A DNA stretch of 11,790 nucleotides from an uncultured Actinomycetes bacterium. Its GTDB lineage: Bacteria; Actinomycetota; Thermoleophilia; Solirubrobacterales; Solirubrobacteraceae. How positions within the stretch are numbered: position 1 is the stretch's first letter; each line of letters starts with the position of its first letter. The stretch spans positions 1-11,790 of the forward strand of contig CALAQT010000187.1 in the NCBI GenBank assembly GCA_937888775.1, written 5' to 3'. This document shows, piece after piece, positions 1 through 10,923 of the stretch. The translations under genes were made by a program, and so were the position numbers. Below the pieces are notes generated by a model. The model saw only the letters and a program-made list of their open reading frames with translations. It was not told the DNA's origin and did not search any database.

Positions 1-1130
1 GCGAGGACGTAGCCGATGTTGCTCATGTAGAGGATCGCCAGGTTGCTGGAGATGAACAGCACGAGCAGCACGTTGACGAATAGGTCCACGGTCATCGCCG
101 GCCCGGGTACGTGCCAGCGGTTGAGCTTGCCGAGCTGCTTGATCGTCAGGCCGGCCTTGGAGATCCCGTACAGCGCCCGGCTGCCGTCGGCGGTCGAGGA
201 TGCCATCGACAGGATCAGGCTGGCGATCAGGCAGATCAGGAAGAAGGTCCCCAGCGTATGTCCGGCGATCGTCTGGAACGCCGTGGAGTAGAACTGGCCC
301 TCCTGCGTCGCGGTCGGCGGGACGCCGCTCACCCCGCCCAGGCCGAGCGGCAGCAGCGCGAACACGCCGACCACGAATATGGCCGAGCTGCGCAGCGCGA
401 TGTGCGTGTCGCGCTCGGTCTTGTACTCGGGGGCAAAGGTGGCGCACACCTCGGCTGTCCACGAGGACCAGCCCAGGATGAACAGGTAGACGAACGCCAG
501 CTTCGTCCCACCCCACGGGCCGGTGAAGGTGGCGTGGACGCGGCTCGAGTGCCAGTCGCCGGTCAGGTACGGCACCACGATGAAGACGATCAGGGCGAGG
601 GTCAGCAGCCCGGCGGTGATGTACGTGAGCCCCTTCATCGGGCGGATGCCGAAGATGTTGAACGCCCACACGGCGATGATCACGCCGATCGCGATGAAGT
701 GGGCCAGCCCCAGGTGCACGACACCGTCGTACACCGTCCAGGTCGAGTTCGGAAACCAGCGCGCCACGACGAGGTCGCCGATGATCTTGCCAAAGATCGC
801 GAGCACCACCGACCAGCCGATCCAGTAGCCGAAGGTGGCGATCGGACCGACGAACGTCGTGTATTTGCGCCAGGCCTCGTGGGCGTAGAGCGAGATGCCG
901 CCTGACTGGTTGGGGAACATCATCGCCGGCTCGACGTAGATCCAGGTCAGCACCATCCCGATCACCGCGGAGATTCCCCACAGGATCACCGACCCGAGAA
1001 CCCCGAAGATGCCCAGCGTGAAGCCCAGAGACCCGAACAGGAAGCCCGGGTTGCACATCGCGATCGTGAACCCGTCCCACCATCGCAACGATTTGATCAG
1101 GTGGCGTTCCTCGACGACTGCTTCGGCCAT
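1..1130 (-). CDS. APC-family amino acid/amine permease (C-terminus cut by window edge)
   Basis: A polytopic inner-membrane transporter of the amino acid-polyamine-organocation superfamily; 376 codons are visible and the end lies beyond the left edge. By eye there are about ten hydrophobic segments (near residues 20-44, 46-70, 96-122, 137-160, 166-188, 210-230, 248-266, 290-310, 346-362 and 364 onward). APC-like features are the broken first helix (NPGFLFGSLGF, 27-37), the SGGISLYAHEAW stretch (76-87) at the second/third helix, and SSTADGSRALYGISK (311-325), which resembles the conserved helix-8 loop. The ATG at 1130 follows a good ribosome binding site (GGAGGGG, 1137-1143). The substrate cannot be read from sequence. 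The shared operator with the operon 2 promoter suggests an amino acid, methylated glycine or quaternary amine. It is divergent from a broken stress-protein gene and has its own strong promoter. Family assignment is firm; specificity is inference. Confidence 0.88.
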   Translation of the reverse strand, partial: MAEAVVEERHLIKSLRWWDGFTIAMCNPGFLFGSLGFTLGIFGVLGSVILWGISAVIGMVLTWIYVEPAMMFPNQSGGISLYAHEAWRKYTTFVGPIATFGYWIGWSVVLAIFGKIIGDLVVARWFPNSTWTVYDGVVHLGLAHFIAIGVIIAVWAFNIFGIRPMKGLTYITAGLLTLALIVFIVVPYLTGDWHSSRVHATFTGPWGGTKLAFVYLFILGWSSWTAEVCATFAPEYKTERDTHIALRSSAIFVVGVFALLPLGLGGVSGVPPTATQEGQFYSTAFQTIAGHTLGTFFLICLIASLILSMASSTADGSRALYGISKAGLTIKQLGKLNRWHVPGPAMTVDLFVNVLLVLFISSNLAILYMSNIGYVL

Positions 1131-1815: not shown

Positions 1816-2499
1816 TCAGGCCTGCTGGGCGCGGTCTGAGACCTCGCGCAGCGTTCCGAACCGGCCGCGGTAGAACAGCAGCGGCTCGCCATCGCGATGG
1901 CTGAGGTGCTCCACCTCGCCGATCCAAAGCACGTGGTCGCCGGCGCTGTGCACGTCGACCACCCGGCAGCCGACGTGGGCGAGCGCGCCGTCGAGCAGCG
2001 GCAGGTCCTTGTGCCAGGCGAACTCGGGATCGACGGGCGAGACCCGCTGGCCCGCGAAGTGGGCGGCGAAGTGCTCCTGGTCTGAGGCCAGGACGCTGAC
2101 CCCGTAGCGCCCGGTACGGGGAAGCATCTCGCTCATCCGGCAGCGGCCAAGCGACACAAGCACCAGCGGCGGGCGCAGCGAAACCGATAGGAACGCGTTC
2201 GCGGTCATGCCGTGGATCGTGTCCCGGTGGGTGGTGGTCACGACCGTCACGCCGGTGGCGAAGCGACCCATCACCTGGCGCAGCTCACGCGCGGCGGCTT
2301 CCACCGCGGCGGCCCTCGGCGTCAGCTTGGCGACGCCGATGGGGGGCTCGATCGCCGTCCGCGCGGGCGTCGGCGGCGCGGCGCGACGGCTTCCCGGACT
2401 CGAGATCGGTCGCGGCGGCGGCATCAATCCGGTGCTAACCGTCGGTGACGCCACCTTCGCCACCCTCGTCAGCCGCGCGATACCCTCGCGTTCAGCCAA
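1816..2499 (-). CDS. HpaC-like NAD(P)H:flavin oxidoreductase (two-component monooxygenase reductase)
   Basis: A flavin reductase-like domain of the HpaC/DIM6-NTAB family occupies residues ~72-222. Recognisable stretches are LRQVMGRFATGVTVVTT (73-89), the flavin-binding GMTANAFLSVSLRPPLVLVSL (97-117), HVGCRVVDVHSAGDHVLWIG (175-194) and the C-terminal PLLFYRGRFGTL. Such proteins reduce free FMN or FAD with NAD(P)H and hand it to an oxygenase partner. Here the likely partner is the acyl-CoA-dehydrogenase-fold protein at the head of the same operon. The T-protein stop lies 23 bases upstream. The first ~65 residues are Pro/Ala/Arg-rich with no family match. The TTG at 2499 has GGAG six bases upstream. 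GTG at 2304 (preceded by GAGGG) would give a 162-residue protein of ordinary length. The domain call is firm; the start is uncertain. Confidence 0.85.
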   Translation of the reverse strand: MAEREGIARLTRVAKVASPTVSTGLMPPPRPISSPGSRRAAPPTPARTAIEPPIGVAKLTPRAAAVEAAARELRQVMGRFATGVTVVTTTHRDTIHGMTANAFLSVSLRPPLVLVSLGRCRMSEMLPRTGRYGVSVLASDQEHFAAHFAGQRVSPVDPEFAWHKDLPLLDGALAHVGCRVVDVHSAGDHVLWIGEVEHLSHRDGEPLLFYRGRFGTLREVSDRAQQA

Positions 2500-2522
2500 G
2501 CCGCGCTCCGAAAAGGCCCCTG

Positions 2523-4832
2523 TCAGGACCGCGGGCGCTTCTTCTCAGGGTCATAGAACGGGAATCGTACGACGCGCGCCGGGATCCGCTTCTGCAGACC
2601 GTCGAGCTTGCCGACCTCTACCTCGGTGGCGATCTCGGCATACTGCACGTTGCACCGGCACAGTGCGATCGAGCGCTTCAGGATCGGGCTCCGGGTGCCG
2701 CTGGTCACGACCCCCACCCGGCGTCGGCCCACGTACACCTCGTCGCCGTGGCCGCTGGCCTCGTTGCCTTCCAGCTCCAACCCCACCAGCCGGCGCTGTG
2801 GGTGCGCCTTGCGCTCCACCAGCGCTTCGCGGCCGACGAAGTCCTCGTCGCCGAGTGCCACGGCAAAGCCGATCCCCGCCTCGAACGGATCCACCAGGTC
2901 ATCGAACTCGTAACCGGCGAAGATCAGCCCCGACTCGATTCTCAGCATGTCGAGCGCCTCGAGCCCCAACGGCTTTAGGCCGCGGGGGGCGCCGGCCTTC
3001 CAGACAGCGTCCCAGACGGCCTCTCCATCTGATGGATGACACCAGATCTCATAGCCCAGCTCGCCGGTGTAGCCGGTTCGCGAGACGATGATCGGAACGC
3101 CGTCGTGGGCGCCGATCCGGCCGACGAGGAAGCGAAACCACTTCAGCTCCGGCAGGCTCGGCTGGGTGGGCGGGGTCCAGACGAACTCGGCCAGCGCTGC
3201 GCGGCTCTCAGGGCCCTGGACGGCGAGGTTGTGCAACTGGTCGGTGGACGGCTTGATCCAGACTCGCAGCCCCTCCCGGTCGGCGACCTCGCGCAACCAG
3301 ATTCCGTCGTACTCGTCGCCGCCGACGAAGCGGAAGTTGTCCTGGCCAAGGCGGAAGACGGTCGCATCGTCGATCATGCCGCCGGTCTCATTGCACAGCG
3401 CCGTGTAGATGACCTGTCCGACCGAGAGCTTGCGGATGTCCCGGGTGACGGTGTGCTGCATCAGGGTCTCGGCGTCGGGGCCGAGCACCTCCCACTTGCG
3501 CAACGGGGACAGGTCCATGACCGCCAGGCGCTCACGGCACGCCCAGTATTCGGCGATTGCGCCCTCGTTGTTGAAGCAGTGTGGCAGCCAGTAGCCGCGG
3601 TACTCGACGAAGCTCTTGGTCAGCTCCGCGGTTCGGGCGTGAAAGGCGCTTTCGCCCGTCAGCACCGGCTCGGCGTCGGCAGTCACGCGACGCGCGATGG
3701 CCATGGAGAAACGATTCTCCGGCGAGTAGACGCGGACATGGATATCCGTCACCTCCCAGGCGTTTGAAGGGTCGATGTCGTCCGGACAGGCCGATGACGC
3801 GCACACCAGGTCGCTCATCGCGCGCAGCATCACGTAGTCGCCGGGCCGCGACCACGGCTCATCGGAGACCAGCTGATGGCTCGAGTCAAACTGGGTGTTG
3901 TAGAAGAAGTTCAGCGCCTCCCAGCCCTTGCGGGGAGCGATCTCGAACGGCTGCAGGGCGCGGTTGAAGTTGTCGGTGCAGTTGATGTGGCCGGGGTAGC
4001 CGAGGTCCTCGTAGTATTTGGCCTGGCAAGCCAGCGCGAAGGTGTCGTGGCGCCCGACCGTGTCGCGCACGACCTCGACCAGCGGCATGAAGTCGAGGTC
4101 GTAGAACTTTCCCTGCAATCCCGGTGTCGGGTAGGCGTTGCCCATCAGCGTCCGCGTCACGGTCGCGTCGAGACCTCGCTCGGTGCCAGCCTCCAGCTTG
4201 GCGCGATCAAAGGCCAGGAAGTCCGAGCACTGCTTGCCCTTGACGTCGATGATCTGGATGAACTCGCCGGCGCGAACCTCGTAGCTCAGCGCCGAGGCGG
4301 GATCGATCCGAAAGTCCAGGCGTGGCGCGGCCAGCGGCGGTGGGAGCTCGAGCTCCCCGGGTGGGCGCGGGCTCGCCCGGCGGACCTCGACCAGCAGCTC
4401 GCTCGCGGGCACGTCGCCGTCGATCAGCCGTCCGCCCGGCGCCGCCACGGCTAGGGCCGTCTCGCCCTGGGCCACCACGGACACCTCGCTGCCGGGGTCA
4501 GAGGTCGGTCCGAACAACCGCGCGCAGCGAGCCTCCTGCGGATCGAGGCCACGGGCGACCAGCGCGCCGGCGAACAGTTTCGCGCCGCCGCTCGCCAGCC
4601 CGCGCAGGACCGTCGCGTCCGCGTCTTGCACCAGCCCGAGCGGAGCGCCGAGCACAGTCACCTCGGCGATCTGGCCGCCATGGCGGTCGACGATCCGTAC
4701 CTGATCGTCCCCCCGGAGCACGATCATCGTCGCCCCGCCCGGCCGCACGGGGTAGGTCTCGAGCGCCGGATCGCGGGGCAGCAGCCCGGCCACCAGCCGG
4801 GGCGACGCGGCCGGGTGGGTCACCGTGGCCAT
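2523..4832 (-). CDS. DUF1989 - aminomethyltransferase (GcvT) fusion protein
   Basis: A 769-residue cytoplasmic fusion. Residues ~28-150 resemble the start of a DUF1989 domain but lack the metal-site motifs. Residues ~183-370 are a full DUF1989: VRAGEFIQIIDVKGKQCSDF, then DTVGRHDTFALAC, YPGHINCTDNF (279-289), RPGDYVMLRAMSDLV and SSACPDDIDPSN. Residues ~395-765 are a GcvT-type tetrahydrofolate-binding domain with C-terminal barrel: NETGGMIDDATVFRL (481-495, the GGxxDD aspartates), SRTGYTGELGYEI (584-596) and LRIESGLIF (630-638). DUF1989 proteins include the carboxyguanidine deiminase subunits CgdA/CgdB; GcvT-like domains move one-carbon units from amino-methyl groups to THF. A C-N cleaving or demethylating role on a methylated glycine is inferred. 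The ATG at 4832 is 13 bases after the flavoprotein stop and has only a weak ribosome binding site. Domain calls are firm; substrate is unknown. Confidence 0.85.
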   Translation of the reverse strand: MATVTHPAASPRLVAGLLPRDPALETYPVRPGGATMIVLRGDDQVRIVDRHGGQIAEVTVLGAPLGLVQDADATVLRGLASGGAKLFAGALVARGLDPQEARCARLFGPTSDPGSEVSVVAQGETALAVAAPGGRLIDGDVPASELLVEVRRASPRPPGELELPPPLAAPRLDFRIDPASALSYEVRAGEFIQIIDVKGKQCSDFLAFDRAKLEAGTERGLDATVTRTLMGNAYPTPGLQGKFYDLDFMPLVEVVRDTVGRHDTFALACQAKYYEDLGYPGHINCTDNFNRALQPFEIAPRKGWEALNFFYNTQFDSSHQLVSDEPWSRPGDYVMLRAMSDLVCASSACPDDIDPSNAWEVTDIHVRVYSPENRFSMAIARRVTADAEPVLTGESAFHARTAELTKSFVEYRGYWLPHCFNNEGAIAEYWACRERLAVMDLSPLRKWEVLGPDAETLMQHTVTRDIRKLSVGQVIYTALCNETGGMIDDATVFRLGQDNFRFVGGDEYDGIWLREVADREGLRVWIKPSTDQLHNLAVQGPESRAALAEFVWTPPTQPSLPELKWFRFLVGRIGAHDGVPIIVSRTGYTGELGYEIWCHPSDGEAVWDAVWKAGAPRGLKPLGLEALDMLRIESGLIFAGYEFDDLVDPFEAGIGFAVALGDEDFVGREALVERKAHPQRRLVGLELEGNEASGHGDEVYVGRRRVGVVTSGTRSPILKRSIALCRCNVQYAEIATEVEVGKLDGLQKRIPARVVRFPFYDPEKKRPRS

Positions 4833-4845
4833 CGGTCCGCGCCGG

Positions 4846-6240
4846 CTAGGCCGAGGCCGGGGCGGACGCCTTCTCCACCTCGGCGAGCAGCTGCTCGGCG
4901 AGGCGGCGCTTACCGTCGGCGTCGAGCTTCTTGATCTCGTTCTCCACCGCGCGACGATTGTAGGTCTGGTTCCAGTAGTCGAGGCTGTCGAAGCCGAGCA
5001 GCACTGCCTTGCCGACGAACTGGCGCAGCACCTCGTTGGTGGGGCCCATCACCCAGCCGGCCTTGGCGTCGCGCAGGTAGCGCTCAAGCTCCATGTCGCG
5101 CTTGTAGCCGGTGCCGCCGCACGCGTGGAGCATCTTGTCGACCACGTGAGCGGTGTTCTTGGCCGCGACGAACTTGACCTGCCACGCCCAGTGTAGGAAG
5201 TTGGCCCGGGCGAACTCGCCCGGGGGCATCCGGCGGGTGTTGTGATCGGTGGCGGTGTCCATCGCCTGTGCGACCGAGAAGACGAACAGCCGCGCGGCGT
5301 TGGTGTCCATGACCGCTTCACCCACATAGTCCTGGATCGTCGGGTAGTCGGCCACGCGCAGGCCCACGTCAACATGGCGCTTGCGCGTTGTCTGGCGTTT
5401 GCCGATGTCGATCGCGCCCATCGCGATCCCGTTCCAGACCGACGAGGAGCCGATCAAGAACCACGGGTCGACCGACTCGTCGTTGGACGCGGCGCCGTCG
5501 CCCTCGGGCCCGACGATCTGCTCGCCGGGGATCTCGACGTTGTCGACCTCGATCGGGCCGGACTGGTTGCCGCGCAGACCCAGCGCGTCCCACGAGGACG
5601 GCTGGGACTTGACGTCCTCACCGTCGATCACGAACACCGACAGGTCGTCATAGCCGGTGAAGTCAGGGCTGGTGGTCTGCACGACGTAGAAGTCGGCGAA
5701 CCCACCCGACGTCGTCCACGAAGCCTTCTTGCGCACCTTGTAGCCGCCGTTGGAGCGCTCGGCACCGGAGGAGATCGGATACCAGAAGTGTGAGCCGGTC
5801 TCGGGATCCGAGTAGGACAGGGTGCCGATCTTGCCGCTGTTGAGCGGCCTGATGTACTTCTCGATCAGCTCGTCGGTGGGGCGCAGCATGATCGTGTTGA
5901 CGGCGCCGATGTGCATCACGTAGCACATCGCCGTCGAGGCACATCCGTAGCGGGCGATCGTCTCGCACGTCATCGCAAAGGCGACGTGGTCCTCGCCGAG
6001 GCCGCCGTATTCGGTCGGGACGGTCAGCGCCAGGAAGCCATGCTCGCCGAGCAGTTCCAGGTTGCGCCGCGGATAATCCAGGTTGTCGTCGGAGACCTTT
6101 GCGTTAGCGCGCATCTCCTTCTCGCACAGCTCGATCAGCAGGTCGCGCAGCTCGCGCTGGCGGTCGGTCAGTACCCATTCGGGGTCCCACTCGTAGCCCA
6201 GCCCCCAGAAGGCCTCTCCACCCCATGTCTTCTCGGACAT
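4846..6240 (-). CDS. Acyl-CoA-dehydrogenase-fold flavoprotein, possibly an oxygenase component
   Basis: A 464-residue protein with the complete ACAD layout: N-terminal helical domain (~24-130), central beta domain (~138-245; SYSDPETGSHFW, GYKVRKKASWTTSGGFADFYVV, LGLRGNQSGPIEVDNVEIPG) and C-terminal helices (~255-410; HACGGTGYKRDMELERYLRDA, GPTNEVLRQFVG). In medium-chain-type dehydrogenases the catalytic Glu lies two residues before the Thr of this last motif; here that place is Gly399. The isovaleryl-type position, in helix SSVWNGIAMG, also lacks Glu by eye. ACAD-fold proteins without the base include flavin monooxygenases (HpaB, DszC, HsaA types), and this operon carries a flavin reductase. 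I therefore favour an oxygenase or oxidase over a true acyl-CoA dehydrogenase, as inference. Two ATGs are adjacent (6243, 6240); GGAGG at 6250-6246 is five bases from the second, so 6240 is chosen. Confidence 0.8.
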   Translation of the reverse strand: MSEKTWGGEAFWGLGYEWDPEWVLTDRQRELRDLLIELCEKEMRANAKVSDDNLDYPRRNLELLGEHGFLALTVPTEYGGLGEDHVAFAMTCETIARYGCASTAMCYVMHIGAVNTIMLRPTDELIEKYIRPLNSGKIGTLSYSDPETGSHFWYPISSGAERSNGGYKVRKKASWTTSGGFADFYVVQTTSPDFTGYDDLSVFVIDGEDVKSQPSSWDALGLRGNQSGPIEVDNVEIPGEQIVGPEGDGAASNDESVDPWFLIGSSSVWNGIAMGAIDIGKRQTTRKRHVDVGLRVADYPTIQDYVGEAVMDTNAARLFVFSVAQAMDTATDHNTRRMPPGEFARANFLHWAWQVKFVAAKNTAHVVDKMLHACGGTGYKRDMELERYLRDAKAGWVMGPTNEVLRQFVGKAVLLGFDSLDYWNQTYNRRAVENEIKKLDADGKRRLAEQLLAEVEKASAPASA

Positions 6241-6245
6241 CATCT

Positions 6246-6250
6246 CCTCC
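6246..6250 (-). promoter_or_regulatory. Ribosome binding site deciding the flavoprotein start
   Basis: Minus-strand GGAGG lies only two bases from ATG 6243 but five bases from ATG 6240, so the second ATG is the better start. Confidence 0.6.
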
Positions 6251-6346
6251 CGGTTTGTCGCTTGGCGAGCGACCTGGAAATGAGTCAGCAGGCCGCCGGA
6301 CTACCGTCACTCATCGCGCAGCAACGGCCCGAGCCAGGACGCGCGC

Positions 6347-6364
6347 TGCACAAATATGTTCAAA
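6347..6364 (+). promoter_or_regulatory. Operator candidate, copy 3 of TGYACAAA-N3-G-N-TCAAA
   Basis: TGCACAAA-TAT-G-T-TCAAA matches the two copies at the permease promoter in the same orientation relative to the downstream minus-strand gene. It lies 4 bases downstream of the presumed -10 box, over the predicted transcription start, a classic repressor position. AT-rich flanks (AAATATGTTCAAATACATTT) form an imperfect palindrome. It suggests co-regulation of operon 2 and the permease. Confidence 0.6.
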
Positions 6365-6368
6365 TACA

Positions 6369-6397
6369 TTTCTATCGGAGTAAATCGCTTCTGTCTA
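6369..6397 (-). promoter_or_regulatory. Promoter of operon 2, TAGACA-N17-TAGAAA
   Basis: On the minus strand TAGACA (6397-6392, 5 of 6 to TTGACA) precedes TAGAAA (6374-6369, 4 of 6 to TATAAT) by exactly 17 bases. The predicted start near 6362 leaves a leader of about 120 bases before ATG 6240. This is the only promoter-like AT-rich patch in the gap. Confidence 0.55.
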
Positions 6398-6542
6398 GGT
6401 CATGCGCGGTGGGAAATTGGCCGCTGATAGGCGTCGAGGCGGCACGAGTTCGGCGACTACGGCGGGGTGGGTGTCCGGCGGCCGCTCGTCCGCGTGGCGG
6501 TCAATCACCGGCCCTTTCCGGCGCCGGCTCGGAATCACTTAT

Positions 6543-8048
6543 CTAGATCACGCGCACGCGTCCACCGTCGATCGCGGCGCCGGCGGCCGCGGGCCGCGCC
6601 AGGCCGCTCTGGGCGTCGGCGATCAGCCCCAGCGTGACGAGCACGCCAGCGCCGGCGGGTGCCGCGCGAGCGGCCTTGGTGTCGACGTGCAGCAGCATGT
6701 GCTCGCCGGTGGCCAGCAGCTCGCCGTCGTCTGAGCGCCGAAGCTCGTGAAACAGGTGCAGCCGCTTCTCGTCGTGGCCGAGCAGCTGCGTCGTGACGTG
6801 GATCGACTGGCCGGCCGAGGCCTGGCCGAGGTGGCGCAGGTGGGTCTCGACGGTGAAGTAGGAGTGCCCGCCCGCCAGGTAGGCGCCATCGATCCCGATC
6901 CGCCGCAGGAACGCGTCAGTGGCGTCGGCCAGCACGTGCAGGTAGCGGCTCTCGGTCAGGTGACCGTTGTAGTCGATCCACTCAGGCGCCACGATCGCCT
7001 CGTGCAGGCGCAGGGGCTCGCCGGTCGGCAACCGATCGTCGCCGGCGTTGGCCGCCGCGTCGATCAGTCCATGCTCCACGCGGGCGATGACCTCGCCGGC
7101 GCCGAAGCCCTGGCCCTTGAGTCCCTGCAGTACCGCGACCAGACAGTCATCCCGGATCAGCTCCAGCTCCTCGATCGAGCGACCCGCGGCCTGGGCGTCG
7201 GACTGCCCCACGAGCTTGTCGAGCAGTGGCTGATCGAGCTCGGGGACGTCGGTGAGCTTGGTCCAGGGCAGCTTCAGCGTGGGACCGAACTGGGCAATGA
7301 AGTGACGCATGCCCGCCTCGCCGCCGGCTAGGCGGTAGGTGAGGAAGGTTCCCATCGCCGACCAGCGCAGCCCGGGTCCGTAGCGGATCGCGTCATCGAC
7401 CTCCTCGACAGTGGCGACATCGTCGGCGACAAGCCACAGCGCTTCACGCCACAGCGCCTCCAGCAGCCGGTCAGACAGAAAGCCGTCGATCTCCCGCCGC
7501 ACGATCAGCGGCTGCATCCCGACGGCGCGATAGATCGCGGCGGCCCGCGCCACCGTCTCAGGCGGGGTCCGTTCGCCGCCGCACACCTCGACCAGGGGCA
7601 GCAGGTAGACGGGATTGAACGGGTGCCCCACGACCAGCCGCTCTGGTCCATCCATCTCGGCGCACAGCCGGGAGGGCAGCAGCCCCGAGGTGGACGAGGC
7701 GAAGATCACATCCCCGGGCGCCGCCGCGCCCGCCTCGGCCAGCAGCGCCCGCTTGAGCCCCTCACGCTCGGGCGCGCTCTCCTGGACGAGCGTCGCCCCG
7801 GCGACCGCCTCGGCCACGCTGTCGACGCAGGTGAGCGTCCCTTCGGCCGGCAGCGGCGCCAACGTCAGTCTGCGCCACGCCCGCCGCGCCCGCTCCAGCA
7901 CTGCCAGCACGCTACGCTGTGCGTCCGGTTCGGGGTCAAACAGACGAACATCGATGCCGTTGAGCAGCATCCGCGCGGCCCAGCCGCCGCCGATCACGCC
8001 GGCGCCGAGCAGCGCCACAGCCTCGGGCTTGGGCTCGATCTCAGCCAC
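6543..8048 (-). CDS. cdhAB: L-carnitine 3-dehydrogenase fused to betainyl-CoA thioesterase
   Basis: A 501-residue bifunctional enzyme. Residues ~10-190 are the NAD-binding domain of the 3-hydroxyacyl-CoA dehydrogenase family: LLGAGVIGGGWAARMLLNG (13-31), acidic residue after the second strand (FDPE), SSTSGLLPS (118-126) and GHPFNPVYLLPLVEV (141-155, containing the family catalytic His). Residues ~190-330 are the helical C-terminal domain (DGFLSDRLLEALWREAL). Residues ~345-465 are a hot-dog thioesterase: EWIDYNGHLTESRYL (356-370), GHSYFTVETHLRHLG, DEKRLHLFHELRR, ATGEHMLLHVDT. This pairing is the known carnitine route: CdhA oxidises L-carnitine to 3-dehydrocarnitine and CdhB hydrolyses betainyl-CoA to glycine betaine. 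The middle step is the neighbouring CdhC. The GTG start overlaps the cdhC stop by eight bases. The last ~35 residues are Ala/Gly-rich and probably unstructured. Substrate assignment is strong from context plus family signatures. Confidence 0.9.
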   Translation of the reverse strand: MAEIEPKPEAVALLGAGVIGGGWAARMLLNGIDVRLFDPEPDAQRSVLAVLERARRAWRRLTLAPLPAEGTLTCVDSVAEAVAGATLVQESAPEREGLKRALLAEAGAAAPGDVIFASSTSGLLPSRLCAEMDGPERLVVGHPFNPVYLLPLVEVCGGERTPPETVARAAAIYRAVGMQPLIVRREIDGFLSDRLLEALWREALWLVADDVATVEEVDDAIRYGPGLRWSAMGTFLTYRLAGGEAGMRHFIAQFGPTLKLPWTKLTDVPELDQPLLDKLVGQSDAQAAGRSIEELELIRDDCLVAVLQGLKGQGFGAGEVIARVEHGLIDAAANAGDDRLPTGEPLRLHEAIVAPEWIDYNGHLTESRYLHVLADATDAFLRRIGIDGAYLAGGHSYFTVETHLRHLGQASAGQSIHVTTQLLGHDEKRLHLFHELRRSDDGELLATGEHMLLHVDTKAARAAPAGAGVLVTLGLIADAQSGLARPAAAGAAIDGGRVRVI

Positions 8049-8937
8049 GACGGGGCAGGCCGAGCCGGTCCCGCACCTCGTCGACCCCGATCACGCGTAC
8101 GTTCATCGCGGTCAGGATCGTCGTGGCGCGTGTCACCAGCGCACCATTGGTCGCCAGCTCGCCACGGCTCGCGTACAGGCTGTCCTCCAGCCCGACGCGC
8201 ACGTTGCCACCGGCCAGCACCGCCATCGCGACATAGGGGAGCTGCATGCGCCCGATCGAGAACGCCGAGAACACGCAACCGGCCGGCAGCTGTGAGACCA
8301 GCGCCAGCAGCGTGGACGGGTCATCCGGCGCTCCGTAGCGGATCCCCATGCACAGCTGGATCAGCGCCGGCTCGTCGATCAGGCCCTCGTCGATCAGGTC
8401 CTTGACCATCACCAGTTGGCCGGTGTCGAACACCTCCAGCTCGGGCCGCACACCCAGCGCGCGGATCTGCTTGGCCATCGCACGCAGCATGTCCGGCGTG
8501 TTGGCCATCACGTAGTCGCCTCCGGCGGCGAAGTTCATCGTCCCGCAGTCGAGCGTGCAGATTTCCGGTGCCAGTTGCGCGACGTGCGTCAGGCGCTCGG
8601 TGGCGCCGACCATGTCGGTCTCGGCCGCATCGAGTGGCAGGGGCGCCTCGGGGCCGCCCAGCACGATGTCACCGCCCATGCCGGCGGTCAGGTTGATGAT
8701 CACGTCGATGTCGGCGGCGCGGATCAGCTCCACGACGCGGCGATACAGCGACACGTCGCGCGATCCGTGGCCGGTGGCCGGATCACGTACGTGCAGGTGG
8801 ACCACAGCCGCGCCGGCACGCGCCGCCTCGATCGCCGATTCAGCGATCTGCACGGGGGTGACGGGCACGTGTGGGCTGCGCCGGGTCGTGTCGCCGGCGC
8901 CCGTTACGGCGCAGGTGATGAACACCTCGCTGTTCAC
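8041..8937 (-). CDS. cdhC: 3-dehydrocarnitine cleavage enzyme (BKACE/DUF849 family)
   Basis: A 298-residue TIM-barrel beta-keto acid cleavage enzyme. Visible motifs: ITCAVTGAGDT (7-17), VVHLHVRDPATG (45-56) with the zinc-binding His47 and His49, NLTAGMGGD (82-90), EICTLDCGTMNF (125-136), GVRPELEVFDTGQL (162-175), and GGNVRVGLEDSLY (243-255), whose Glu251 probably completes the metal site. The enzyme condenses 3-dehydrocarnitine with acetyl-CoA to give betainyl-CoA and acetoacetate. The CTLDCGTMNF and ELATNGALV stretches fit the carnitine subgroup, and the neighbour is the dehydrogenase/thioesterase. GTG 8937 overlaps the ATPase TGA in a GTGA junction and has GAGGGGG ten bases upstream. The same frame stays open for 90 codons further upstream, but that Arg-rich stretch is the ATPase gene read out of frame. 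Confidence is high for family, good for substrate. Confidence 0.9.
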   Translation of the reverse strand: MNSEVFITCAVTGAGDTTRRSPHVPVTPVQIAESAIEAARAGAAVVHLHVRDPATGHGSRDVSLYRRVVELIRAADIDVIINLTAGMGGDIVLGGPEAPLPLDAAETDMVGATERLTHVAQLAPEICTLDCGTMNFAAGGDYVMANTPDMLRAMAKQIRALGVRPELEVFDTGQLVMVKDLIDEGLIDEPALIQLCMGIRYGAPDDPSTLLALVSQLPAGCVFSAFSIGRMQLPYVAMAVLAGGNVRVGLEDSLYASRGELATNGALVTRATTILTAMNVRVIGVDEVRDRLGLPRRG

Positions 8938-10745
8938 CGTGACAGCGCCCCCTCGAGCGTCGGCGTGTTGGCCAGCAGCTGCCTGGTGTACTCCGCACCG
9001 GGGGAGGCGAACACCTGCTCGACGGGACCCGACTCTACGATCCGGCCCTCGGTCATCACGATCACGCGGTCGGCGATCGTACGGATCAGGGCGAGGTTGT
9101 GGGTGATGAACAGCATGCTCAACCCGGTCTCGATCCGCAGCTGTCGCAGCAAGTCGACGATCGCGGCCTGCACCGAGACATCGAGCGCCGAGGTGACCTC
9201 GTCGCACACCAGCAGGGAGGGCTCGGCGGCGAGCGCGCGGGCGATCGCGACGCGCTGGCGCTCACCGCCGGAGAGCTGATCGGGATAGCGGTTGGCCGCC
9301 TCGGAGGACAGCGACACCCGCTCTAGGCACTCGCTCACCCGTCGGGCCGTTTCGCGCTTGGCGCCGGGAAAGAACAGCTGCAGCTGGCGAGCGATCGTCT
9401 GGCCGACCGTGCGTCTGGGGTTCAGGGAGGCATATGGGTTTTGAAACACGTACTGGATCTGCTTGCGGGCGTGTGCGCTTCGCCGCCGCGCGCTCTCCGG
9501 CAGTCGACTGGCGTTGAGCAGGATCTCGCCGGCGTAATCGCTGTGCAGACCAGCCACGCACCGGGCCAGGGTTGTCTTGCCGCTGCCCGACTCGCCCACC
9601 AGCGCCACGCACTCGTTGCGCTGGACGGAGAAGTCGATCTCGAACAGCGTGTGATGCGAGCCGTAGCTGGCGTCCAGGTGCTCAACTGAGATCACCGTTT
9701 CGCCGGGCTGCATGTGCGCGGATCCCTGGCCCGTCATCCGGACCTCGGACGGGGACTCCCCGGCGCGATAGCAGTGCACGAGATGTCCGGCGTCGAACTT
9801 CGATGCCAGCGGGTAGGACACGTGGCAGTTGTCGATGGCCAGGTCACAGCGCGGCGCAAAGAAACAACCGGTCGGACGGTTGCCGGGCAGCGGCGCCCGA
9901 CCCGGGATCCCGACCACGGCGCGCTTGCCAGCCAGATCGGGCACGGCCCGCAGCAGCTGGCGCGTGTAGGGATGACGCGGGTTGGCGAAGATCGTGTCGC
10001 GAGGGCCGCGCTCGACGATTCGCCCGGCGTACATGACGGCGACGTGGTCGGCCAGTTCGGCGACGACGGCCAGGTCATGGCTGACGTACAGGGCGGCGAC
10101 CTGATGGCTGCGGCAGAGATCGCGCACGGTTTCCAGCACGCGCGCCTGGGTGGTGACATCCAGGCCGGTGGTCGGCTCGTCGCAGACGATCACGCGCGGT
10201 CGGCAGGCGAAGGCCATGGCGATTGCGACGCGCTGCTGCTGACCGCCGGAGAGCTGGTGCGGATAGCGACGCAGGAACTGGTCGTCGCAGGGCAGCGCGA
10301 CCTCTTCAAGGCCCTCACGGATGCGCGCTCGCCGCTGTTCGTCAGACCGGTCGGCGGCGAGCTCCTCCAGTGTCTCCAGCAGCTGGCGTTCGATCCGCAG
10401 CGCCGGGTTCAGCGCGGTGGCGGGGTCCTGGGGAATGTAGGAGACGACGCCGCCGCGCAGCCGGCGTAGCTCCTCCTTGGGAAGGCCAGACAGCTCCCGG
10501 CCGTCGATCACGACCTCGCCGCCGGACATGCGTCCGCCGGGCCGGCAGTAGCCCATCAGCGCCATCCCGACCGTGGTCTTGCCCGAACCCGATTCGCCGA
10601 CCAATCCCAGCACCTCGCCGGCGCGCACCTGGAGCGTGACCTCGTCCACGACGTCGTTGTGGTTGGCGACCAGCTCGATCCGTAGATCGCTCACCTTGAC
10701 GACGCTGCCCGAGTCGCTGGGGGAGGGTAGGGCGGAAACGCTCAC
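8934..10745 (-). CDS. Fused dipeptide/oligopeptide-type ABC transporter ATPase (DppD-DppF type)
   Basis: A 603-residue protein with two nucleotide-binding domains. Domain 1 (~16-330): Walker A GESGSGKTT (50-58), signature LSGGQQQRVAIA (165-176), Walker B VIVCDEPTTGLD (185-196), switch His in SHDLAVV. It carries the oligopeptide-transporter C-terminal extension RAPLPGNRPTGCFFAPRC (283-300) with Cys 294, 300, 307 and 325, the spacing seen in DppD/OppD proteins that can hold an iron-sulfur cluster. Domain 2 (~350-600): Walker A GESGSGKTT (384-392), LSGGERQRVAIA (491-502), LLVCDEVTSALD (511-522), THNLALI. Both ATP sites look intact. Such ATPases normally sit after a binding protein and two permeases; none is present. 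GTG 10745 follows an in-frame TGA (10751-10749) and has no recognisable ribosome binding site. The only other nearby start, GTG at 10694, is no better. The downstream cdhC starts inside its stop codon. Confidence 0.92.
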   Translation of the reverse strand: MSVSALPSPSDSGSVVKVSDLRIELVANHNDVVDEVTLQVRAGEVLGLVGESGSGKTTVGMALMGYCRPGGRMSGGEVVIDGRELSGLPKEELRRLRGGVVSYIPQDPATALNPALRIERQLLETLEELAADRSDEQRRARIREGLEEVALPCDDQFLRRYPHQLSGGQQQRVAIAMAFACRPRVIVCDEPTTGLDVTTQARVLETVRDLCRSHQVAALYVSHDLAVVAELADHVAVMYAGRIVERGPRDTIFANPRHPYTRQLLRAVPDLAGKRAVVGIPGRAPLPGNRPTGCFFAPRCDLAIDNCHVSYPLASKFDAGHLVHCYRAGESPSEVRMTGQGSAHMQPGETVISVEHLDASYGSHHTLFEIDFSVQRNECVALVGESGSGKTTLARCVAGLHSDYAGEILLNASRLPESARRRSAHARKQIQYVFQNPYASLNPRRTVGQTIARQLQLFFPGAKRETARRVSECLERVSLSSEAANRYPDQLSGGERQRVAIARALAAEPSLLVCDEVTSALDVSVQAAIVDLLRQLRIETGLSMLFITHNLALIRTIADRVIVMTEGRIVESGPVEQVFASPGAEYTRQLLANTPTLEGALSR

Positions 10746-10923
10746 CGTTCAGTCCGGTGGTGGCAGGGCTGGAGCTTGAGCTGGCGCTGCTGCTGGCACC
10801 GCCGCCACAAGCGGCCAGCAGACCGCTCGTGCTCAGCATCATCCCGCCCGCCATCGCCCCCCGTAGAGCCTGGCGTCGCGTGATCGAATGATCAGGCCGC
10901 TGTCGCTGCACTCGCTCAGTCAC
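10746..10923 (-). pseudogene. Solute-binding lipoprotein remnant (signal peptide and linker only)
   Basis: From GTG 10923 the frame encodes a Tat-type lipoprotein signal peptide: TRRQALRGAM with the twin arginines at 16-17, a hydrophobic stretch GGMMLSTSGLLAAC and a lipobox cysteine at residue 39, then GGGASSSASSSSSPATTG, the Ser-rich linker typical of actinobacterial peptide-type binding proteins. After ~residue 58 the reading frame becomes Arg-rich and overlaps the ATPase gene out of frame as far as 10342, so the binding domain (normally ~500 residues) is absent. GAGGGGA (10931-10937) is seven bases upstream, and the start overlaps the regulator's stop codon (GTGA), so the beginning of the gene is well formed. 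A deletion from here to the ATPase start, or a collapsed assembly, is the simplest explanation. Confidence 0.75.

Follow-up and report, generated by a model that had tools for sequence, protein, structure and literature searches.

A probable trimethylamine oxidation module with an acyl-CoA dehydrogenase-fold protein beside trimethylamine N-oxide demethylase in an uncultured Solirubrobacteraceae bacterium

In this study, we analyzed a stretch of 11,790 nt, in the following called the window, from contig CALAQT010000187.1 of an uncultured Solirubrobacteraceae bacterium. An earlier note covering positions 1816–8937 had named two carnitine genes followed by genes for a flavoprotein with the acyl-CoA dehydrogenase (ACAD) fold, a DUF1989-GcvT fusion and a flavin reductase. 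The list of open reading frames (ORFs) of the window, Pfam and NCBIfam confirmed all of these genes, as five long intact ORFs on the minus strand. From the evidence given below, we infer that the row formed by the latter three genes quite probably oxidizes trimethylamine (TMA) and that the ACAD-fold protein is a non-orthologous replacement of Tmm, the TMA monooxygenase of the flavin-containing monooxygenase (FMO) type.

The row starts with the gene for the ACAD-fold flavoprotein (positions 4846–6243, minus strand; 465 aa with ACAD domains according to Pfam), the proposed oxygenase component of a two-component TMA N-monooxygenase. It is followed by tdm, encoding the DUF1989-GcvT fusion of 769 aa (2523–4832, minus strand), and by the gene for a flavin reductase of the StyB/HpaC type (1816–2499, minus strand; PF01613, 141 bits, residues 77–217), the proposed reductase component. 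The three genes are tightly packed, with gaps of 13 bp (ACAD-tdm) and 23 bp (tdm-reductase). For the reductase gene the start codon is unsure, the TTG lying 70 residues ahead of the PF01613 domain. On the minus strand, 299 bp (6244–6542) separate the row from the carnitine genes, with a stretch resembling a ribosome binding site, GGGAGGAG, ahead of the ACAD start codon (ATG 6243); a scan of positions 6200–6600 revealed neither a promoter-like nor a terminator-like match.

What the earlier note had overlooked is that the DUF1989-GcvT fusion corresponds to a named enzyme, trimethylamine N-oxide (TMAO) demethylase (Tdm), and it is predicted from its sequence to convert TMAO. The model NF053776 (trimethylamine N-oxide demethylase) matches it over its full length (residues 21–768) with 1157 bits at a cut-off of 1100, and the solved Tdm chain 9q59/9q5l matches it with 898 bits; the GcvT part alone resembles SoxA (159.6 of 1164 bits). 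The identity to the Sinorhizobium Tdm is 56%. For the Tdm of Methylocella silvestris, PMC12560246 gives D198, C263, H276, C279, C343 and D346 as metal-site residues and an N-oxide as the substrate. All six of these zinc/iron ligands are matched in the window Tdm by spacing (QCSDF, ALAC, GHINC, ACPDD), their positions having been read off by eye from the window sequence in an alignment that did not contain the M. silvestris sequence itself, and the domain order is kept as well. What differs is the partner, which is an ACAD-fold protein instead of Tmm.

The ACAD-fold protein reached no NCBIfam cut-off (HsaA 61.9 of 450 bits, DszC 51.9 of 850 bits), and NF058570, the model of FMO-type Tmm, gave no match to it at E 0.001. 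Gly400 stands at the position of the ACAD catalytic glutamate and is invariant across 33 aligned sequences, and the relatives carry W, F, N, Y or I at the position of the isovaleryl-type base. F153-W154-Y155 and W397 are likewise invariant and are candidates for residues lining the pocket. These two positions, the first being the Glu of YEGT, are presumably the base sites of acyl-CoA dehydrogenases, and the window protein has a catalytic Glu at neither of them. Fold and sequence matches nevertheless rank acyl-CoA dehydrogenases at the top, and this ranking by the fold search, which confirmed the ACAD fold, counts against an oxygenase. It would suit an ordinary acyl-CoA dehydrogenase that became a neighbor of tdm by accident, an explanation that we regard as extremely unlikely in view of the lost base and of the linkage to tdm in three phyla described below. 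Foldseek and VIA-align gave no separation of dehydrogenase from oxygenase for this protein.

HpaB, HsaA, DszC, DnmZ and isobutylamine N-hydroxylase are members of group D of the flavoprotein monooxygenases. According to PMC6165268, this group comprises ACAD-fold oxygenases with separate flavin reductases, N-hydroxylation included. The window protein shares both traits, the ACAD fold and the separate flavin reductase gene, and its proposed substrate is a tertiary alkylamine. Flavin-dependent monooxygenases and FMN reductases are likewise encoded near two of the three outgroup ACADs examined. In locus L052 (35% identity), the neighbors are sfnG, ssuD and an FMN reductase; in L049 (33%), they are a luciferase-like monooxygenase and an FMN reductase. 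When plasmids were searched with the ACAD-fold protein, 1543 records gave matches below 60% identity, the best of which, the only one examined, adjoins sulfone monooxygenase genes. Fusions of ACAD and reductase were discarded as a line of evidence because eight over-long homologues had no domain beyond those of ACAD.

To describe the gene neighborhood in relatives, genome contigs were scanned, resulting in 51 ACAD loci. After L049 and L050 (30%) had been dropped, 49 loci from 47 genomes were left, with two genomes supplying two loci each (L019/L047 and L046/L051). Forty loci extend at least 300 bp past ACAD, 25 at least 8 kb downstream, and 20 at least 7 kb on both sides. Directly downstream of ACAD, tdm is found in 37 of the 40, and because the order is kept in so many loci, the adjacency is not due to chance; the linkage was found across three phyla. 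A flavin reductase gene, frequently on the opposite strand, is present in 21 of the 25 loci and missing from L028, L040, L041 and L044. Tmm was found in none of the 49 loci, GMAS/Mgs genes occur in 21 (10 of the 20 with long flanks), an APC permease gene in 20, and DmmABC directly upstream of ACAD in three (L031, L033, L041).

In L002, whose ACAD is 91% identical to that of the window, ACAD, Tdm, flavin reductase and APC permease genes are followed on the opposite strand by MgsC, MgsB, MgsA and GMAS. Both L031 and L033 have the order DmmA-DmmB-DmmC-ACAD-Tdm-flavin reductase, and Pfam identifies the DmmC of L033 as a haem-dependent oxidative N-demethylase (HODM). While L008 and L010 read GMAS-MgsA-MgsB-MgsC-ACAD-Tdm, L090 reads GMAS-MgsA-MgsB-MgsC-Tdm-Tmm, i.e. 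a like neighborhood with the other oxygenase. The GMAS match of L040 is weak (30% identity). The titles of L038 and L039 name Bifidobacterium breve and look mislabelled, because the ACAD and Mgs proteins encoded there cluster with those of Solirubrobacterales. In L014, the flavin reductase (12784–13749) has a C-terminal cyclic-nucleotide-binding domain, and many other ACAD loci contain a closer match to this reductase than to that of the window.

The Dmm genes bear on the possibility that the ACAD-fold protein acts downstream of Tdm and oxidizes dimethylamine to methylamine. Tmm, Tdm, DmmA, CdhAB and MgsC were counted in the genomes of 40 of the 51 loci; DmmA was found in 4 of these ACAD genomes and not found in 36, which would leave the latter without a known dimethylamine enzyme. 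Yet ACAD excludes Tmm and not Dmm, DmmABC stands directly upstream of ACAD in the three loci named above, and SAR11, according to PMC5520151, has Tmm and Tdm without Dmm, so that we consider this role quite unlikely. A PhyH-type (iron/2-oxoglutarate) dioxygenase, a candidate alternative dimethylamine demethylase, is encoded in 14 of the 49 loci (L008, L009, L011, L012, L015, L018, L021, L025, L028, L029, L034, L038, L039, L046) and in none of the three with DmmABC. An FAD-dependent oxidoreductase of the DAO type (~438 aa), a candidate for an enzyme oxidizing N-methylglutamate or dimethylamine, recurs near ACAD-tdm or Tmm-tdm (L011, L012, L016, L018, L034, L059, L065 and others).

In the genomes sampled, ACAD and Tmm over the cut-off were never found together. 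The same search for ACAD (E 1e-100), Tdm (E 1e-110) and Tmm over 396 Actinomycetota genomes detected Tdm in 11 (9 over the cut-off), ACAD in 10 and Tmm in 2. Nine of the 11 Tdm genomes carry ACAD, the remaining two Tmm and none both; with kinship ignored, the association of Tdm with ACAD has a Fisher p of 9e-16. For the Alphaproteobacteria, 190 genomes were searched for Tdm and ACAD was sought in the 15 Tdm genomes only, of which 7 have Tmm, 4 ACAD, none both and 4 neither. The four alphaproteobacterial ACADs have 58–63% identity and all lie within ~4 kb of tdm. The pooled 26 Tdm genomes thus comprise 13 with ACAD, 9 with Tmm, none with both and 4 with neither (p 5e-4, uncorrected for kinship). 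Tmm over the cut-off was found in none of 46 ACAD genomes (40 + 3 + 3), including the one-contig chromosome of Svornostia abyssi (CP088295.1). In 32 of the 40 ACAD genomes there is a relative of MgsC with at least 75% identity, and at E 1e-190 MgsC was matched in 10 of 386 Actinomycetota genomes, comprising 7 ACAD genomes, 2 Tmm genomes and one with neither (G352). The Tdm genomes with neither oxygenase (L092–L095) are G451, G477, G602 and G506, the last with only a broken Tmm piece; they are perhaps users of imported TMAO or have a third oxygenase.

The exchange of partners was followed on a Tdm tree of 45 rows, built from 46 selected loci and not from all, the rows being single best tblastn pieces, some of them partial (L033, L041 and L092 among all rows). 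The long rows L041 and L092 were excluded since they came together as long branches in a quick tree, and the test of a single ACAD clade was run after this quick tree had been seen. The ACAD label needs four changes on the tree, of which at least three are forced by well-supported branches, and a single clade of ACAD-linked Tdm is rejected (p-AU 0.0002). The Tmm-linked actinobacterial Tdm of L090 (genome G304) is sister to that of the ACAD-linked L032 (support 98/91), and two Tmm-linked rows form the sister group of the ACAD-linked L087 (97/96). One kind of Tdm is thus found next to both oxygenases, and this speaks most strongly for TMAO as the product of both.

The tree also bears on the idea that the ACAD-fold protein and the reductase N-oxidize another tertiary amine, e.g. 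dimethylglycine or a dimethylamino compound, with a Tdm clade tuned to that N-oxide. The window Tdm being only 56% identical to that of Sinorhizobium would agree with this, but the nesting of the L090 Tdm among ACAD-partnered ones indicates that the same Tdm type serves both oxygenases, and the GMAS and Mgs genes handle methylamine; another amine is therefore unlikely. Our best reading is that the ACAD-fold protein is a two-component, reduced-flavin TMA N-monooxygenase which displaced Tmm more than once and supplies TMAO to Tdm.

Besides the ranking by the fold search, several points weigh against a TMA monooxygenase. In 3 of the 40 loci (L040, L044, L045), tdm is not beside ACAD, and genomes G034 (L040), G038 (L045) and G244 carry ACAD with no Tdm found; G037 (L044) holds a second ACAD, beside its Tdm, and G244 has no Tdm but MgsC on the ACAD contig and a GMAS match beside ACAD. 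One TAG lies inside the ACAD match of G592 and of G244, which are possibly broken or misread. In the alphaproteobacterial loci L086–L089, all four of them, no flavin reductase was found in the surroundings of ACAD (tblastn; 10 neighboring ORFs), and the third outgroup, L050, is without a flavin enzyme among its two neighbors. Weak FMO-like matches, the best reaching 92 bits at a cut-off of 675, are present in 29 of the 40 ACAD genomes, most genomes are metagenome-assembled genomes (MAGs) of unknown completeness, making the absence of Tmm weaker there, and the searches over 396 genomes scored the best four (ACAD, Tmm) or best two (Tdm) candidates per genome. Finally, the MgsC matches do not include G029, G013 and G020, three of the 10 sampled Actinomycetota genomes with ACAD.

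In the proposed pathway, the steps of which were drawn from PMC5520151 and PMC13390433, the flavin reductase would use NAD(P)H to provide FMNH2 or FADH2. The ACAD-fold protein would bind the reduced flavin and form a C4a-hydroperoxyflavin with O2, which would oxidize the nitrogen of TMA to yield TMAO. Tdm would then split TMAO into dimethylamine and formaldehyde, and its GcvT domain may help to hand the formaldehyde to tetrahydrofolate. Where Dmm is present, it would convert dimethylamine to methylamine; elsewhere another enzyme would do so, and methylamine would enter the N-methylglutamate pathway (GMAS, MgsABC).

Upstream of the module and outside it, the window contains genes for a CdhC-type beta-keto acid cleavage enzyme (BKACE; 8041–8937, minus strand; PF05853, 317 bits; no NCBIfam cut-off reached) and a CdhA-CdhB fusion of carnitine 3-dehydrogenase and thioesterase (6543–8048, minus strand; NF005716, 682.6 bits, cut-off 592). 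CdhABC is the carnitine route to glycine betaine, and the trio had been read as demethylating carnitine-derived glycine betaine, dimethylglycine or sarcosine toward glycine. The position of CdhC-CdhAB directly upstream fits this, as does the occurrence of GcvT domains in dimethylglycine oxidases. However, the fusion scores over the Tdm cut-off, ACAD and TMA monooxygenase are mutually exclusive, and glycine betaine is a quaternary amine, the N-oxidation of which is impossible. Because Tdm uses an N-oxide and betaine yields none, the substrate of the module would not be betaine. In addition, Cdh genes were found in none of the 49 ACAD loci, the 20 with long flanks included, and methylamine genes in 21, so that the trio lies mostly away from carnitine genes and beside methylamine genes, a pattern which the earlier note had named as one that would refute its proposal. 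The proposal of a flavin-dependent step coupled to a GcvT-domain demethylase outside GbcAB, DgcAB and Sox holds, and no GbcAB, DgcAB or Sox protein was named among the 8 scanned window proteins; the betaine-type substrate is very probably wrong.

CdhAB over the cut-off is present in 8 of the 40 ACAD genomes, every time on a contig other than that of ACAD, and CdhC lies beside CdhAB in all four of these eight loci that were fetched. In G040, the contig with the carnitine genes (L085) stops 120 bp past CdhAB, with the stretch beyond unseen, and in L084 CdhAB is followed by a weak ACAD-fold match (20.6%). The same CdhC-CdhAB gene pair is located on a Novosphingobium capsulatum plasmid with 72.6% DNA identity. 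Some members of the group thus have both the carnitine and the ACAD-tdm capacity, and the proximity of the two in the window looks like a local arrangement.

At the other end of the window, a gene for an APC-family permease (3–1130, minus strand; PF13520) is cut by the window edge. Its best family is the TMAO permease (NF053774) with 139 bits at a cut-off of 690, a score from a partial gene, and the protein is a possible amine importer. In 15 loci, a gene for a conserved protein of ~161 aa (L038:9395–9880) with no Pfam match at E 1e-8 lies close to that of the permease or of ACAD. At 10745–10923 of the window, the start of an ORF with a lipoprotein-type signal peptide (from 10923, minus strand) runs directly into an ABC ATPase gene at 10745; the remainder of a binding protein and the permeases are missing, which indicates a deletion or an assembly collapse. 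In Svornostia abyssi, serine-cycle-like genes (HpcH/HpaI lyase, ATP-grasp/CoA-binding ligase pair) flank the module (L033:954–2141 and 17064–19597), hinting at methylotrophy.

Tmm is a single-component enzyme. It catalyzes the reaction proposed here for the ACAD-fold protein and is likewise encoded near tdm in like neighborhoods (L090, L091, L053, L054), but it is an FMO, in contrast to an ACAD-fold protein with a separate flavin reductase, and no sequence relation between the two was seen. The methylated-amine clusters of Ruegeria and Methylocella contain tmm, tdm, dmmDABC, gmaS and mgsABC according to PMC5520151. Compared with the clusters as given there, the downstream steps are the same, with Dmm or N-methylglutamate pathway genes beside ACAD-tdm in relatives, whereas no tmm was found in the ACAD loci, where ACAD takes its place, and Dmm was mostly not found. 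A literature search, with most subscription papers and preprints beyond reach, gave no title or abstract describing an ACAD-type TMA monooxygenase.

Taken together, these genes probably represent an unrecognized family of ACAD-fold, reduced-flavin TMA N-oxygenases in Actinomycetota, Alphaproteobacteria and at least one Armatimonadota MAG, which swapped with Tmm several times beside tdm and because of which many TMA oxidizers would be invisible to tmm surveys. If true, one reaction is carried out by two unrelated flavoenzyme folds exchanging beside the same partner gene, and a substrate is suggested for proteins that databases label only as acyl-CoA dehydrogenase. The gene used to count aerobic TMA oxidizers is tmm, which is estimated to be present in 20% of surface-ocean bacterial species (estimate cited in PMC13390433). 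With ACAD in 13 and Tmm in 9 of the 26 Tdm genomes, many bacteria of soil, groundwater and freshwater would escape tmm-based surveys. For TMA, a common smelly nitrogen compound, the ACAD-tdm set looks like an overlooked oxidation route.

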